Shown: piece after piece, positions 18,203-63,326 of the stretch
Numbering within the stretch: position 1 is the first letter of the stretch
Layout: each line of letters starts with the position of its first letter
Source: Deltaproteobacteria bacterium
GTDB taxonomy: Bacteria > Desulfobacterota > Desulfobacteria > Desulfobacterales > Desulfosarcinaceae
Length of the DNA: 64,000 bases
Direction of reading: 5' to 3'
NCBI GenBank assembly: GCA_021824175.1
Contig: JAKALP010000025.1
Span: 1-64,000 of the forward strand
The notes under the pieces: generated by a model
Database searches by the model: none
What the model was told of the DNA's origin: nothing
What the model saw: the letters and a program-made list of their open reading frames with translations, nothing else
Position numbers and translations under genes: made by a program

Positions 18203-18268
18203 GCCCGTGGCCCGTTTGCCCGTTTGCCCGTTAGCCCGTGGCCCGTGGCCCGTGGCCCGTGGCCCGTT
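18203..18268. repeat. Array of nine GCCCGT units at 7-8 bp
   Basis: GCCCGT starts at 18203, 18210, 18218, 18226, 18234, 18241, 18248, 18255 and 18262. Spacing is 7 bp after GCCCGTG units and 8 bp after GCCCGTTN units. It lies directly upstream of dnaE on the opposite strand sense. The complementary motif recurs at 18335-18374, so the two arms could fold into a long imperfect hairpin. Confidence 0.8.
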
Positions 18269-56052: not shown

Positions 56053-57912
56053 TTAGCCTGCCTTTCCCAATGCAACTATAGATTCTTTCTCATTTGTATC
56101 GCAGTGATGGCAAAGAAAAGTATTTACGCCATCCAGGCCCATGTAGCGTTCCAGGGTTTTATGGTCGGTTTGCAGCAAATCTACTACGATTAATCCATCC
56201 ATGACCCTGCTGAAAAGCTTATCGATATTGAAGGAAAGCAGTTGCCCGCCGAGATTCAGATATTGGCGTAACAGAACCGGAACATCCTTTTGTTCGAACT
56301 CAATATCGGAAACCACGGAACAGACCTCTTTGAAGTCCTGGAAATGGAAGTCATGGGTGGTGCGGTCACATCCCTTGATCCGCACCGGTCTAAGTGGGGC
56401 CGGCTTGCGCGGCTGCACCAGCAAGGCCAAATCCTTAGCCTGACTGTTCCTGAGCAGGGTGGTGGCCAGCAGCTGGCGGGAGAGATCGGAATAGTCGCTG
56501 CTGATGCTTACTGGACCGAACAGCATACGGTATTGGGGGTTTTTGCTGATGTAGGTGCCGATGCCCCGCCAAAGCAAAAGCAATGATGAGTATGATTTTT
56601 GATACTCCGGACGAATAAAGGATCGGCCCATTTCGAGAGCGGGTCCCAGCTTTTGAAAAAAGTCTATCCGACTGTGAAAAAGCGTTTGGGTATAAAGCCC
56701 CTTGCGGCCGAACTCAGCCAGGATTTGATCTGTGCGGCCCAATCGATAGGCGCCCACGATCTCTTCGCTCTCTTCGTTCCAGATAAAAAGATGTAGATAG
56801 TACTGGTCAAATCGATCAATGTCCAGGGGGCGGCCAGTGCCCTCTTTGGCCAGCCGAAAGGAAAGCTCCCGCAACCGGCCGATTTCCAGCATAGTATGCG
56901 GTATCTGAGGGGCCTGGGCCACCCATACCGAAAACGAACCGCTTTGCACCAGCAATTGATCTTCCGGCAAGCATTCGATTTCCTTCCGGCAGATCTTGGG
57001 CGCCTGGGGAAGCGCCAAGGGCTGTTGGTTCGGGCCCAGTGAAAATCCCGGTCCCCCAGACCGTTTAAGTAACGGAGGGCGGCGATGTCCCATGATATAG
57101 GTGCGCCAGCGTAAGTAGGCCATCAGACAGTCATCTTCGGTGTACTTCTGCAGCCAACGGTAACTAATCGGATTGCCAATTTTGTAATGAATGGATTTAC
57201 CCCGCTGTCTTAGTAACTCGCGGGCCAAAAGAATGGTGCGTAGTCTGGGATGGAGCATTCCGGCAGCCTGGAAGAGATTGCCATTGCGGCTTTTGAAGTA
57301 AATAGGCACTACGGATGCGTGGGCATGATGGACGACGCGAGCCACAATGTGGCTCCAGGGAGGATCGGAGACCTCTCGGTGCAGATATTGGAAGTGGGAT
57401 ACTTCGCCGGCCGGAAATACTAAAAGCAAGCTCCCCTCTTTGACCCAGCGCATGGCCTTGCGAAGTGGGCCGAGGTTGGCTTGGGCCGCCCCGTTGCCTT
57501 CAAAAGGATCTACAGCGATGGTCAGGGATTGAAGCTGAGGCAGACGATTCAGCAAATAGTTGGCCATGATCTTTACATCAGGGCGAATGCTGAGCAGCAT
57601 TTCAGCCAAAATAATGCCCTCAATGGCGCCGAAGGGATGATTGGCCACGACAATGCATGGTCCCTTGGAGGGGATCTTTTCCTTATCCTGAGACGTGACG
57701 ACCGAAGTAATGGACAAATGCTTCAGAATTTGCCGCATAAACGCCTGGGAGTCTCTTTCGTGCCCGATTTGCTTATAAATTTGATCGCAGCGTCTAAACC
57801 CCAGCATAGATTCAAAAGGTGTGGATAGAAGAGAGGCCCAATGGCGTGGGCTATTGGGCGTCCGAGAAGCGTTTATTGAGAAGATCCTATGGGTGGGGGA
57901 CATGGGTGTCAT
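56053..57912 (-). CDS. Two-domain acyltransferase: PlsC-like plus GNAT/hemolysin-like (OlsF-like)
   Basis: 619 residues; the ATG at 57912 follows GGAG by 5 nt. The N-terminal half (about 80-280) has the acyltransferase motifs NHPFGAIEG (91-99, with Glu98 in place of the common Asp) and FPAGEVS (166-172). The C-terminal half (about 320-560) resembles the OlsB/acyl-homoserine-lactone-synthase-like GNAT fold, with LREL-FR near 350 and GRSFIRPEYQKS. In OlsF an N-acyl and an O-acyltransferase in one chain build ornithine lipids, phosphorus-free membrane lipids. The domain order is compatible. The amino acid substrate is inferred, not shown. Confidence 0.78.
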   Translation of the reverse strand: MTPMSPTHRIFSINASRTPNSPRHWASLLSTPFESMLGFRRCDQIYKQIGHERDSQAFMRQILKHLSITSVVTSQDKEKIPSKGPCIVVANHPFGAIEGIILAEMLLSIRPDVKIMANYLLNRLPQLQSLTIAVDPFEGNGAAQANLGPLRKAMRWVKEGSLLLVFPAGEVSHFQYLHREVSDPPWSHIVARVVHHAHASVVPIYFKSRNGNLFQAAGMLHPRLRTILLARELLRQRGKSIHYKIGNPISYRWLQKYTEDDCLMAYLRWRTYIMGHRRPPLLKRSGGPGFSLGPNQQPLALPQAPKICRKEIECLPEDQLLVQSGSFSVWVAQAPQIPHTMLEIGRLRELSFRLAKEGTGRPLDIDRFDQYYLHLFIWNEESEEIVGAYRLGRTDQILAEFGRKGLYTQTLFHSRIDFFQKLGPALEMGRSFIRPEYQKSYSSLLLLWRGIGTYISKNPQYRMLFGPVSISSDYSDLSRQLLATTLLRNSQAKDLALLVQPRKPAPLRPVRIKGCDRTTHDFHFQDFKEVCSVVSDIEFEQKDVPVLLRQYLNLGGQLLSFNIDKLFSRVMDGLIVVDLLQTDHKTLERYMGLDGVNTFLCHHCDTNEKESIVALGKAG

Positions 57913-58369
57913 GGCATCTCCAGTAGTAATTGTTCAATTTCTCCGCCGCGTCGGAAGATAATGCTTTTCGAGATATCCACCGACATTGGTATCGGCCATC
58001 GGCGCTCCTTTGTCTTAGTTTATAAACACGAGCTAAACTGGCACACTATTAGTAAGCTTCTTTTAGAATTAGATTAGAATTTTGTTAAATTTCTATGCGG
58101 TGTGAAGATGCAATCGATTTTGAATGTCGGCCAAGAGTTTCAGTAGATGCAGGCGGAACCTCCTCCTGCCCTCCAGAAGGAGGGTTGAAGGCACGAATAG
58201 GACCAGGGGGGAGGAGATGGTTCAAATACGGTTAGGGCCAAATTAGAATTTGATGAACTTGCTGAAAGTACTTTGCTTATGGAGAAGTCCGTGTTAGGCA
58301 ACTCACATGGACAAAGAATTTGATTACCGCAGTAAACTGCTAACGATAAAAAATAAAGGAAAACACGTT
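57913..58369. other. 457-nt divergent spacer with phased TTAG boxes
   Basis: Shared by the acyltransferase (minus) and the DUF3108-like gene (plus). It holds the 11-bp phased boxes at 58062-58088, a CCCTCC/GGAGGG hairpin at 58169-58184, and otherwise AT-rich DNA. No open frame with a ribosome site was found. Confidence 0.55.
58062..58088 (+). promoter_or_regulatory. Three TTAG-type boxes at 11-bp spacing (candidate operator 1)
   Basis: TTTAG at 58062, ATTAG at 58073 and GTTAA at 58084 repeat exactly every 11 bp. The word TTAGAATTTTGTTA (58074-58087) recurs exactly at 62975-62988. Direct repeats one helical turn apart are the binding pattern of OmpR/PhoB-family regulators. The site lies between the acyltransferase and the DUF3108-like genes. 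Confidence 0.5.
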
Positions 58370-59176
58370 ATGGCGGCGAACAGCCTATGCTATTTTTTCA
58401 AACTGCGTTTTTCCTTCAGATGGCAATCACTGCCTGCCGTCGTACTGGGCGTGATTTTCTTTTCTTTCCCATGCGCTAAAGCCGACCCCATTGCCCAGCA
58501 TACCCGATATTTTACGGAGCAAAATGGAGGTGCTCGGCATAAAGTAGTATGGTTCTTATCTCCGCAAACGGAAGGTTACCAACTGCTCTATCTCAAGGAG
58601 ACACAGGTGAACACCACGCTGGTGGATCAAAACATGCGGACATTGCTTTGGACCATGGATGATGCCCAAACCGCCAGCGACCTCCGCGCCGAACGGAAGA
58701 ACAACCTCATTACGATCCAAGGGAATCTCAACGGCCGGCCCATTCACAAAGATATAAAAATCGATAATGCCCCCTGGTTTCAGGCTACCACCCTCTCTCT
58801 GAAGACGCTGGTCACCTCCGAGCAAAATGAAATCGAATTCTGGACTCTGCGACCTGGCACATTGAAAGCATATAAGCTCAAGGCGACCAAAGTGGGCTGT
58901 GAGCAACTGAACATCGCGGGTCAGACCATTCAGGCAGTTAAAGTGCAACTGCAGCTCAGTGGCTGGCTGGCGCCATTTTGGAAGAGCTACTACTGGTTTG
59001 ATGCTGAAAATGGGCTATTTGTGCGGTTTAATGGTCAGACCGATTCCGGTGCTGAGGCATTCTATTCCATTGACTACAGCGGCCCCGCCAGCCCGACCTG
59101 TCCCGAACTGAAACGGTATGCCAATATCTCCCACGGTGCTAATCCCACCACCCTCCGCCATCAGCCAAATGGTTGA
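58370..59176 (+). CDS. Exported DUF3108-like protein
   Basis: 268 residues from the ATG at 58370 (AAAGGA about 10 nt upstream; an upstream ATG at 58307 has no ribosome site). A signal peptide ends near FPCAKADP. The rest is a beta-rich domain with ATTLSLKTLVTSEQNEIEFW, KAYKLKATKVGCEQLNIAG and SYYWFDAENGLFVRFNGQ. The last pattern (substrate loaded, W-x-x-x-N-G-L) is common in DUF3108 outer-layer proteins. Only two Cys are visible near the C-terminal half. The role is unknown. It ends 13 nt from the convergent 3' end of the GH57-fold gene. Confidence 0.65.
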   Translation: MAANSLCYFFKLRFSFRWQSLPAVVLGVIFFSFPCAKADPIAQHTRYFTEQNGGARHKVVWFLSPQTEGYQLLYLKETQVNTTLVDQNMRTLLWTMDDAQTASDLRAERKNNLITIQGNLNGRPIHKDIKIDNAPWFQATTLSLKTLVTSEQNEIEFWTLRPGTLKAYKLKATKVGCEQLNIAGQTIQAVKVQLQLSGWLAPFWKSYYWFDAENGLFVRFNGQTDSGAEAFYSIDYSGPASPTCPELKRYANISHGANPTTLRHQPNG

Positions 59177-62231: not shown

Positions 62232-62581
62232 GACCGAAGATTCCCCACATTGTTCCAAGCTGCGGACCGGCTTCAGATTTACGATGGCGGCGACCGGTGC
62301 GCGCCTTCATGAAGGCCTCCGCTAACCGCCACCTAACATATTACTTACATAAAACTAACACGCCGATCGGATGGAAACAACGAAGGCTAAAGAGGTTTTG
62401 TCATTACCAAACCTACATCATAGGAATTCTGACGGAAGAACTTGAACCAAATTATCTTTGCGACGGTATGAAGCAAGGTAGGGTGGCGTAGGAAATCGCG
62501 ATCCCAGTTAAAGATTTCTATTAGTTGCGACCCTCATACAATCCGTCAGGAGGTCCTGCATGGAGATCGCGGCTTGCGCGG
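62232..62581. other. 350-nt spacer upstream of the GH57-fold gene
   Basis: Carries the four 11-bp phased boxes at 62322-62359 and, on the minus strand, a 33-codon open frame starting at 62310 with GGAGG 5 nt upstream that overlaps the start of the large gene; it may be a leader peptide or chance. Nothing else is recognised. Confidence 0.5.
62322..62359 (-). promoter_or_regulatory. Four GTTAG-type boxes at exactly 11-bp spacing (candidate operator 2)
   Basis: On the plus strand CTAAC, CTAAC, CTTAC and CTAAC start at 62322, 62333, 62344 and 62355; on the sense strand of the GH57-fold gene they read GTTAG, GTAAG, GTTAG, GTTAG. A TAATAT at 62338-62343 could serve as the -10 box of an activator-dependent promoter. 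The boxes lie about 90-130 bp upstream of the start codon. Confidence 0.6.
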
Positions 62582-62848
62582 TCAATGTTCCAGCCGGATC
62601 CTGCCGAAGCTTTCCAAACTCAATGCTTTGATCTTCCTGGTACGAACGCCATGGCGCATAAAAAGGATCAAATCCTTTAAACATCCGGAATAGCTTAAAA
62701 CCTTGGCGCGATCACTTTCGGTGATCCTTTTAAACAAACAGCGTTCGGCAGCGGTGGCCTCGTTATCCGCCATCCAGATGATGTCCTCGTATGAGTGGCC
62801 CTTAGCTTTTTGTACGAACTCAATAATATTGAATGATGATGATAACAT
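62582..62848 (-). CDS. Small hypothetical protein
   Basis: 88 residues. AAGGAGG stands 7 nt before the ATG at 62848. The product is soluble and mixed helical with SYEDIIWMADNEATAAERCLFKRI and a basic C-terminus (RHGVRTRKIKALSLESFGRIRLEH). No known domain is recognised. The gene is single and has the phased-box spacer upstream, so it may share regulation with its neighbours. Confidence 0.55.
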   Translation of the reverse strand: MLSSSFNIIEFVQKAKGHSYEDIIWMADNEATAAERCLFKRITESDRAKVLSYSGCLKDLILFMRHGVRTRKIKALSLESFGRIRLEH

Positions 62849-63326
62849 AGCACTTCCTCCTTGCCATGTCCGGTTACAGGCGTCTCAACACGGGTTTCCA
62901 TGTCCCGGCTAACCCGTTGAGATTATGATACTCCGCCACGGGAGCCAAGCAGTCATATTGATACCAGACATTTGTTAGAATTTTGTTAGCAACATTCTCC
63001 AGCCTAATCTATTACAAACAAGGTGCTGATCCGGGAGACTGTTCGGCGAATCCAGGATGCTTGCGCTGAGCGTAGCGTGCAGGCGGTCTCGTTTACCGGT
63101 GCAGAACCGCTGCTCGCGATAGCCGCCGCCTGCTGAACCCCTCCAAAATAAAAAGATTTTCCCGGAAATCTTCATCAAAATCTATTGCAGCCCTAACGCC
63201 GGCTTAATCGAACTGATAGATAGTGTAATCAAATATAAAGCTTTCGGGCGGTTGAGAGAAGTTTCTTCCATTTACCTTGAAATGACTTCCTTCTCAGCAA
63301 CCCGTGACAGCGAAGGAGAATATTCT
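62849..63326. other. 478-nt divergent spacer with phased GTTAG boxes
   Basis: Between the 88-residue gene (minus) and the PHP gene (plus). Holds the boxes at 62974-62989, a TAATCT at 63005 that could be a -10 box for the plus strand, and an AAGATTT/AAATCTT hairpin at 63153-63172. GC-richer DNA at about 63040-63140 has no open frame with a ribosome site. Confidence 0.5.
62974..62989 (+). promoter_or_regulatory. Two GTTAG boxes at 11-bp spacing (candidate operator 3)
   Basis: GTTAG at 62974 and 62985 with AATTTT between. The 14-nt word TTAGAATTTTGTTA is identical to that at 58074-58087. Sits between the 88-residue gene and the PHP-domain gene. Confidence 0.5.

Follow-up and report, generated by a model that had tools for sequence, protein, structure and literature searches.

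What reads four near-identical pentamers set one helical turn apart between two genes, and which gene is controlled by them, in which direction? The locus that raises this question lies in a stretch of 64,000 nt (the window) from the start of contig JAKALP010000025.1 of a Desulfosarcinaceae genome. The preliminary description had placed CTAAC, CTAAC, CTTAC and CTAAC at 62322, 62333, 62344 and 62355 in perfect phase; the coordinates are confirmed, and the 11-bp steps are exact between all four boxes. The array stands after the stop of a gene for an 88-aa protein and 90 nt before the likely ATG of a gene for a 1013-aa protein, both on the minus strand (Table 1). With up to three mismatches allowed, the pattern CTAACN6CTAACN6CTAACN6CTAAC has the array as its single match in the window and no match in 100 dinucleotide shuffles. 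A scan without preset motif, for any four pentamers with at most one mismatch overall, returns the array as the sole period-11 case in the window, and at the other periods from 7 to 25 only tandem repeats starting at 18210-18243 with periods 7 and 8. (From there on, these repeats consist of short units like GCCCGT, with periods 8 and 7.) Of 300 Markov-1 random windows, none holds a four-pentamer array of the same strictness at period 11 and one holds such an array at period 10 or 11; the number rises to 27 once every period between 8 and 22 is admitted. On the whole, the earlier view that such phasing is unlikely by chance is borne out, with a within-window statistic that is modest (27/300 at any period) and conservation as the decisive part; its claim to be the longest array of its type in the window holds at the strictness of at most one mismatch, weaker arrays of the same motif being present at two other places (Table 1) and a doubtful one at 58225-58260. 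No longer repeats are listed in the spacer holding the array. A structured RNA was considered as well and rejected, Rfam at gathering scores giving only one tRNA in the window.

Table 1. Positions of the array, the candidate promoter elements and the neighbouring genes and arrays in the window
Feature	Position	Strand	Basis or remark
Four-box Pho array	62322..62359	-	GTTAG/GTAAG/GTTAG/GTTAG in the sense of the downstream gene
Boxes of the array	box 1 62355-62359, box 2 62344-62348, box 3 62333-62337, box 4 62322-62326	-	
Candidate extended -10, TGT-TAGTTT, shares box 1	62352..62360	-	17 bp from TTG
Candidate -35, TTGTTT	62375..62380	-	TTG 18 nt before TGTTAG in 13/13 spacers not chosen by TTG
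Second conserved element, GTAGGTTTGGTAATGA	62401..62416	-	centre about 63 bp before the expected start
1013-aa gene, predicted GH38/GH57-type fold, N-terminal hydrophobic segment, C-terminal helix	59190..62231	-	ORF, AlphaFold, Foldseek
88-aa gene, no known family	62582..62848	-	activating Pho arrays before several orthologues
Second Pho array, activating toward the 88-aa gene	62960..62992	-	R2 E=2.2e-4
Third Pho array, activating toward the OlsF-like gene	58061..58099	-	R2 E=0.0058
OlsF-like bifunctional acyltransferase	56053..57912	-	NF052615 OlsF, 400 bits (cut-off 620, not reached)

The product of the downstream gene is predicted to be an uncharacterised GH38-like envelope protein. Its AlphaFold model (pLDDT 83, pTM 0.82, 27 sequences) has its best Foldseek matches among GH38 alpha-mannosidases (5kbp, E 8.7e-20, about 10% identity), with GH57 enzymes lower in the list. 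By sequence the protein matches no known family, neither in Pfam at 0.001 nor in the PDB at 0.1, and its likeness to GH38 is one of fold alone. The GH38 alpha-mannosidases 5kbp and 2wyi appear to be the closest solved folds, with about 1000 aligned columns; however, the identity is about 10%, and since the query TM-scores are 0.41-0.49 with an rmsd of 9-20 A, the domain arrangement differs from theirs.

Poor conservation in orthologous spacers had been named beforehand as refuting a function for the boxes, and it was looked for, and not seen, in 30 genomes of the family (source genome included), 13 of which have the 1013-aa gene or part of it. Our analysis shows that the array precedes the orthologue in all 13 genomes carrying the gene, these 13 spacers being related to one another and not independent events. 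Over them the majority letter has a mean frequency of 0.885 in box columns, against 0.585 in the columns that separate the boxes and 0.484 in the stretch from the TTG of the candidate -35 to box 1. Box 1 is GTTAG in every spacer (13/13), and boxes 2, 3 and 4 match [GA]T[TGA][AC][GA] in 13, 12 and 12 of them, respectively. A wider sample comprised the upstream regions of 30 out of 58 loci. Among them, 12 have TTG-18-TGTTAG upstream, five more (L040, L043, L045, L050 and L068) have altered forms of the TTG and box 1 in register, and the remaining 13, with Clostridia- and Chloroflexi-labelled loci among them, have no TTG-TGTTAG form; L042, L047 and L052 of these 13 were also read by eye and the other ten were judged by the pattern alone, and one of the 13, L066, gives one weak three-box match.

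The regulator was approached with two sequence profiles. The first, R1, was made from 16 focal-type arrays, that is, arrays like the one studied here, and at E<=0.1 it has matches in 40 genomes out of 60, other genes following many of these matches. In relatives the genes behind these matches include pst genes, an alkaline phosphatase gene, a gene adjoining polyphosphate kinase, a lipase gene, a gene for a PhoB-like regulator and others, where the genes at L131, L139, L140, L142, L146 and L135 (a porin) were tested against Pfam and the remaining pst labels go by sequence resemblance. (Three pst loci, L129, L136 and L138, each have a pair of Pho arrays separated by about 88-110 bp.) The second profile, R2, was made from 14 non-focal arrays, mostly pst and none from the source genome, with L130, L133, L137, L140, L144, L145, L146, L136a, L118-L128 and both window arrays excluded; it shares no sequence with R1, but all 14 of its arrays were first found as R1 matches, and as regards the finding of members the two profiles are not independent. 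On the 6.07-Mb source genome R2 has at least nine matches at E<=1 and at least seven at E<=0.05, with 150 of 314 candidates scored; the whole-genome profile searches scored 150 of 395, 150 of 314 (R2) and 150 of 1172 (R3, described below) candidates, and further sites may exist. The matches at E<=0.05 precede the phoB homologue, pstC, pstS, a porin gene, the OlsF-like gene, the 88-aa gene and the 1013-aa gene. The phoB homologue is followed by a gene for a PhoR/PnpS-type kinase, pstC is in a cluster with pst genes and phoU, and the pstS match belongs to a second pst cluster. The array before the 1013-aa gene itself is matched at E=0.02 with a low score of 17.5 bits, and the ninth match (E 0.78) falls within an ORF that is unrelated.

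PhoB belongs to the OmpR family of response regulators, the family to which the preliminary description had looked for candidates, and this suggestion gains support from the same motif standing before the phoB homologue, pstC and pstS of the source genome. Because R2 matches these sites in the genome, the array is most likely a conserved site for the phosphate-starvation regulator PhoB, a Pho box in a consensus of this lineage, and the assignment to PhoB is well supported by motif and gene context. The array has the direct repeats at an 11-bp period, at least two being needed for a Pho box, and the genome encodes a PhoB homologue and a PhoR/PnpS-type kinase and carries the motif before its phosphate genes. 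Four half-sites at 11 bp are best read as room for two PhoB dimers, with CTAACA-N5 as the lineage consensus (N5-TGTTAG on the other strand), and a multimer on one face of the helix, as earlier proposed, is plausible.

The Pho box of E. coli is described as 11-nt direct repeats on which PhoB sits head to tail, two per box (PMC4415409). The array shares the 11-nt direct repeats but not the letters, which are CTGTCAT in E. coli according to PMC3333781 and CTAACA here, and unlike the E. coli box as described it is reversed and overlaps a probable -10. For the sulfate reducer D. vulgaris, sites of PhoB (DVU1083) are reported before pstS-C-A (PMC3333781), which likewise join the PhoB of a sulfate reducer to pst genes; however, the box given there is (c/t)GT(n)AC, a 6-bp repeat with a 4-bp spacer, whereas C/T-TAAC-A with an 11-bp period is seen here. 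The motif is thus related to both consensus forms with letters that are not identical, and the lineage consensus is derived in this study.

We then turn to the direction of control, for which orientation is informative. Before pst and similar genes CTAACA reads toward the gene, and the array studied here is reversed relative to the 1013-aa gene. We compared it with 31 non-focal arrays, which are loci at hand and not a random part of the about 87 non-focal R1 rows, and which count in L121 although no convincing boxes were found there. TANNNT stands exactly 9 nt past the last CTAACA in 14 of the 31 and TTGA at 6 nt in five, and 12 have neither activated geometry, so the geometry is not universal. 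In the CTAACA direction, the 16 focal-type arrays have neither TANNNT at 9 nt nor TTGA at 6 nt (0/16); the arrangement of a PhoB-activated promoter, with boxes in activating orientation and a -10 about 9 nt past the last box, is accordingly found in 0/16 against 14/31. As for the five loci with TTGA 6 nt after the Pho array (L130, L133, L137, L140 and L118), a -10-like hexamer follows further on, and they probably form a second activated class that keeps a -35; the gene after the L140 array is a class 3 lipase, and others among the five look alike.

Read in the sense of the gene, the focal-type arrays present TTG, 17 bp and then TAGNNT preceded by TGT, this candidate extended -10 coinciding with box 1. 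The TTG at -35 spacing is found in 13/13 orthologous spacers and in 1/31 of the other arrays, where the set of 13 was not chosen by this feature, while L036, L037 and L044 among the 16 arrays were chosen by the TTG pattern. In five distant orthologues, none of which entered the models, a hexamer closer to a canonical -10 occupies the exact register of box 1: TATGAT (L040) and TAATAT (L043) at 17 bp from a TTG, TATATT (L050, Desulfobacter latus) and TATAGT (L068) at 16 bp, and TATATT (L045) at 15 bp. Four of the five hexamers are preceded by TGT, and box-like pentamers follow at 11-bp steps; the spacing of 15 or 16 instead of 17 in three of the five counts against the promoter. At L041 the likely ATG, that of a signal-peptide-like start, is separated from box 4 by 5 nt, and therefore the promoter cannot sit downstream of the array; a longer reading frame at this locus starts at a TTG within the array, which would move the promoter further upstream still. 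Activating arrays keep the same TGTTAGNNT in their last box, so the conservation of box 1 by itself is no proof of a -10, and this shared invariance weakens the notion that a -10 role is what holds box 1 constant. The promoter claim is kept because of the TTG in 13/13 spacers, the distant orthologues and L041. A consensus promoter scan does not list the candidate promoter, whose -35 is poor beyond the TTG (TTGTTT). Judged from sequence anatomy alone, the array would thus lie over the -10 and the start, as in a PhoB-repressed promoter, and we infer from this anatomy that the GH38-like gene is repressed.

Other directions of control have to be weighed against this. The array might stand before the GH38-like gene only incidentally and activate a plus-strand gene, in the manner of the pst arrays, and the CTAAC direction does point to the plus strand, with divergent neighbours at some loci: a DAGK_cat gene at L087, DAGK_cat-like genes (by eye) at L041, L044 and L048, and a CehA/McbA-like gene in D. 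alkaliphila (L046). We consider this unlikely, since the window, G005, G007 and G010 (the 88-aa gene in each) and L036 and L037 (other genes) have a same-strand gene as the nearest one upstream and hence no adjacent gene reading away from the array, no -10 stands at 8-10 nt in 16/16 focal-type arrays, and the array stays with the GH38-like gene while its neighbours vary among loci, no single one of them keeping with it. Divergent activation is thus rejected, with no activated geometry in 16/16. It is quite unlikely, too, that PhoB has a positive effect on the GH38-like gene, be it by activating a promoter between array and ATG or in another way: the distance from box 4 to the ATG, 90 nt in the window and longer in D. 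widdelii, would leave space for this, but L041 has no room, the orientation is opposite to that of the 19/31 arrays with recognisable activated geometry, and the consensus scan lists no promoter-like site between array and ATG.

The identity of the regulator was weighed in the same way. The PhoB homologue has TIGR02154 as its best NCBIfam match with 235 bits, under the equivalog cut-off of 296, a PnpS/PhoR-type kinase adjoining it, and at least six response regulators of the genome match the PhoB-like protein of a relative at E<=1e-30 (150 of 212 candidates scored), so that another OmpR-family regulator with a similar half-site might bind the array; this is very unlikely, as the phoB homologue and two pst clusters are among the best matches of the Pho model in the genome. 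That the phasing is due to chance and has no function, for which the 27/300 random windows with arrays at one or another period between 8 and 22 might be cited, has a negligible probability beside an array kept in 13/13 orthologous spacers of three genera of the family and the 0/300 and 0/100 found in random windows at period 11 and in shuffles with the motif pattern.

The other Pho arrays in the window belong to the same picture. In the array at 62960-62992, CTAACA is followed after 9 nt by TATCAA. The 88-aa protein has eight other matches in 40 genomes, six of which have an activating array by either test (L214-L217 by boxes; L213, L216, L217 and L218 by R2 matches), with neither boxes nor an R2 match at L211 and L212. 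The OlsF-like protein has Pfam acyltransferase and GNAT domains, and its gene is probably one for phosphorus-free aminolipid synthesis. A homologue is reported to be needed for normal growth of phosphate-limited D. alaskensis G20, in which ornithine lipids appear (PMC5193443). Repression of the GH38-like gene fits this neighbourhood because activating arrays precede the OlsF-like and 88-aa genes. Between the OlsF-like gene and a gene for a 289-aa protein (58307-59176) there is in addition the weak array at 58225-58260 (R2 E 0.32), which is reversed like the four-box array, reads GTTAG/ATTAG/ATGAA before the 289-aa gene and adjoins, by eye, a TTCAAA-17-TAGAAT-like promoter; at orthologous loci of the 289-aa gene a crude box test gives GTTAG-direction arrays in 2/7 (L204 and L209) and none in 5/7.

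A second conserved element lies upstream of the candidate promoter. In eight Desulfatitalea-type spacers its pattern, GTAGG-N4/5-TAATGA, starts 36 nt upstream of the TTG, and in six Desulfosarcina-type spacers it is inverted, at 33 nt; it was not found in 2 of the 16 spacers. A profile of this element, R3, has no other match at E<=0.5 in the source genome (150 of 1172 candidates scored), and a regulon test with R3 in 13 genomes gives one match each in five, all before the GH38-like gene.

On this evidence it is quite probable that the array is an operator for PhoB~P, that box 1 overlaps the promoter, and that the 1013-aa GH38-like gene is repressed in phosphate starvation. Under starvation PhoR would phosphorylate PhoB, and PhoB~P, bound head to tail on all four boxes, would span the promoter from about -14 to +24. 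Lying on the bases of the extended -10 used by sigma, it would exclude RNA polymerase and turn the GH38-like envelope protein off, while the OlsF-like lipid gene and the adjacent 88-aa gene would be turned on by way of their arrays in activating orientation. More generally, and with a confidence somewhat better than even, we propose that in Desulfosarcinaceae and relatives TGTTAGNNT, a reversed PhoB half-site, doubles as an extended -10 for which PhoB~P and sigma compete, the reversed array being a dedicated repressor site for a GH38-like protein anchored in the membrane, alongside a phosphate-induced synthesis of aminolipids. In the tagAB promoters of B. subtilis the PhoP boxes are on the opposite strand. 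No account of opposite-strand boxes in repressed PhoP promoters was found in the literature searched. That PhoP~P represses tagAB is described in PMC6232261, and as far as that account goes the likeness lies in a phosphate regulator repressing an envelope gene in starvation, which is inferred for the present locus, the difference in another gene and another lineage. E. coli PhoB is likewise reported to activate or repress depending on the position of its site (PMC10294691).

Beyond the preliminary description, the present analysis names the regulator and adds the reversed orientation of the array and its overlap with a probable -10, hence a likely repression. A limited literature search for 'Pho box' and 'Desulfosarcina' together found no paper with that pair. 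The results point to a Pho box that is specific to one lineage of sulfate reducers, the Desulfobacterales, and to a conserved PhoB-repressed gene predicted from the orientation of the array and the position of the -10 alone. When phosphate is limiting, lipid remodelling is reported to matter in D. alaskensis G20 (PMC5193443), and if the proposed repression is true, a GH38-like envelope protein would join the phosphate response of these organisms beside the remodelling of their lipids.
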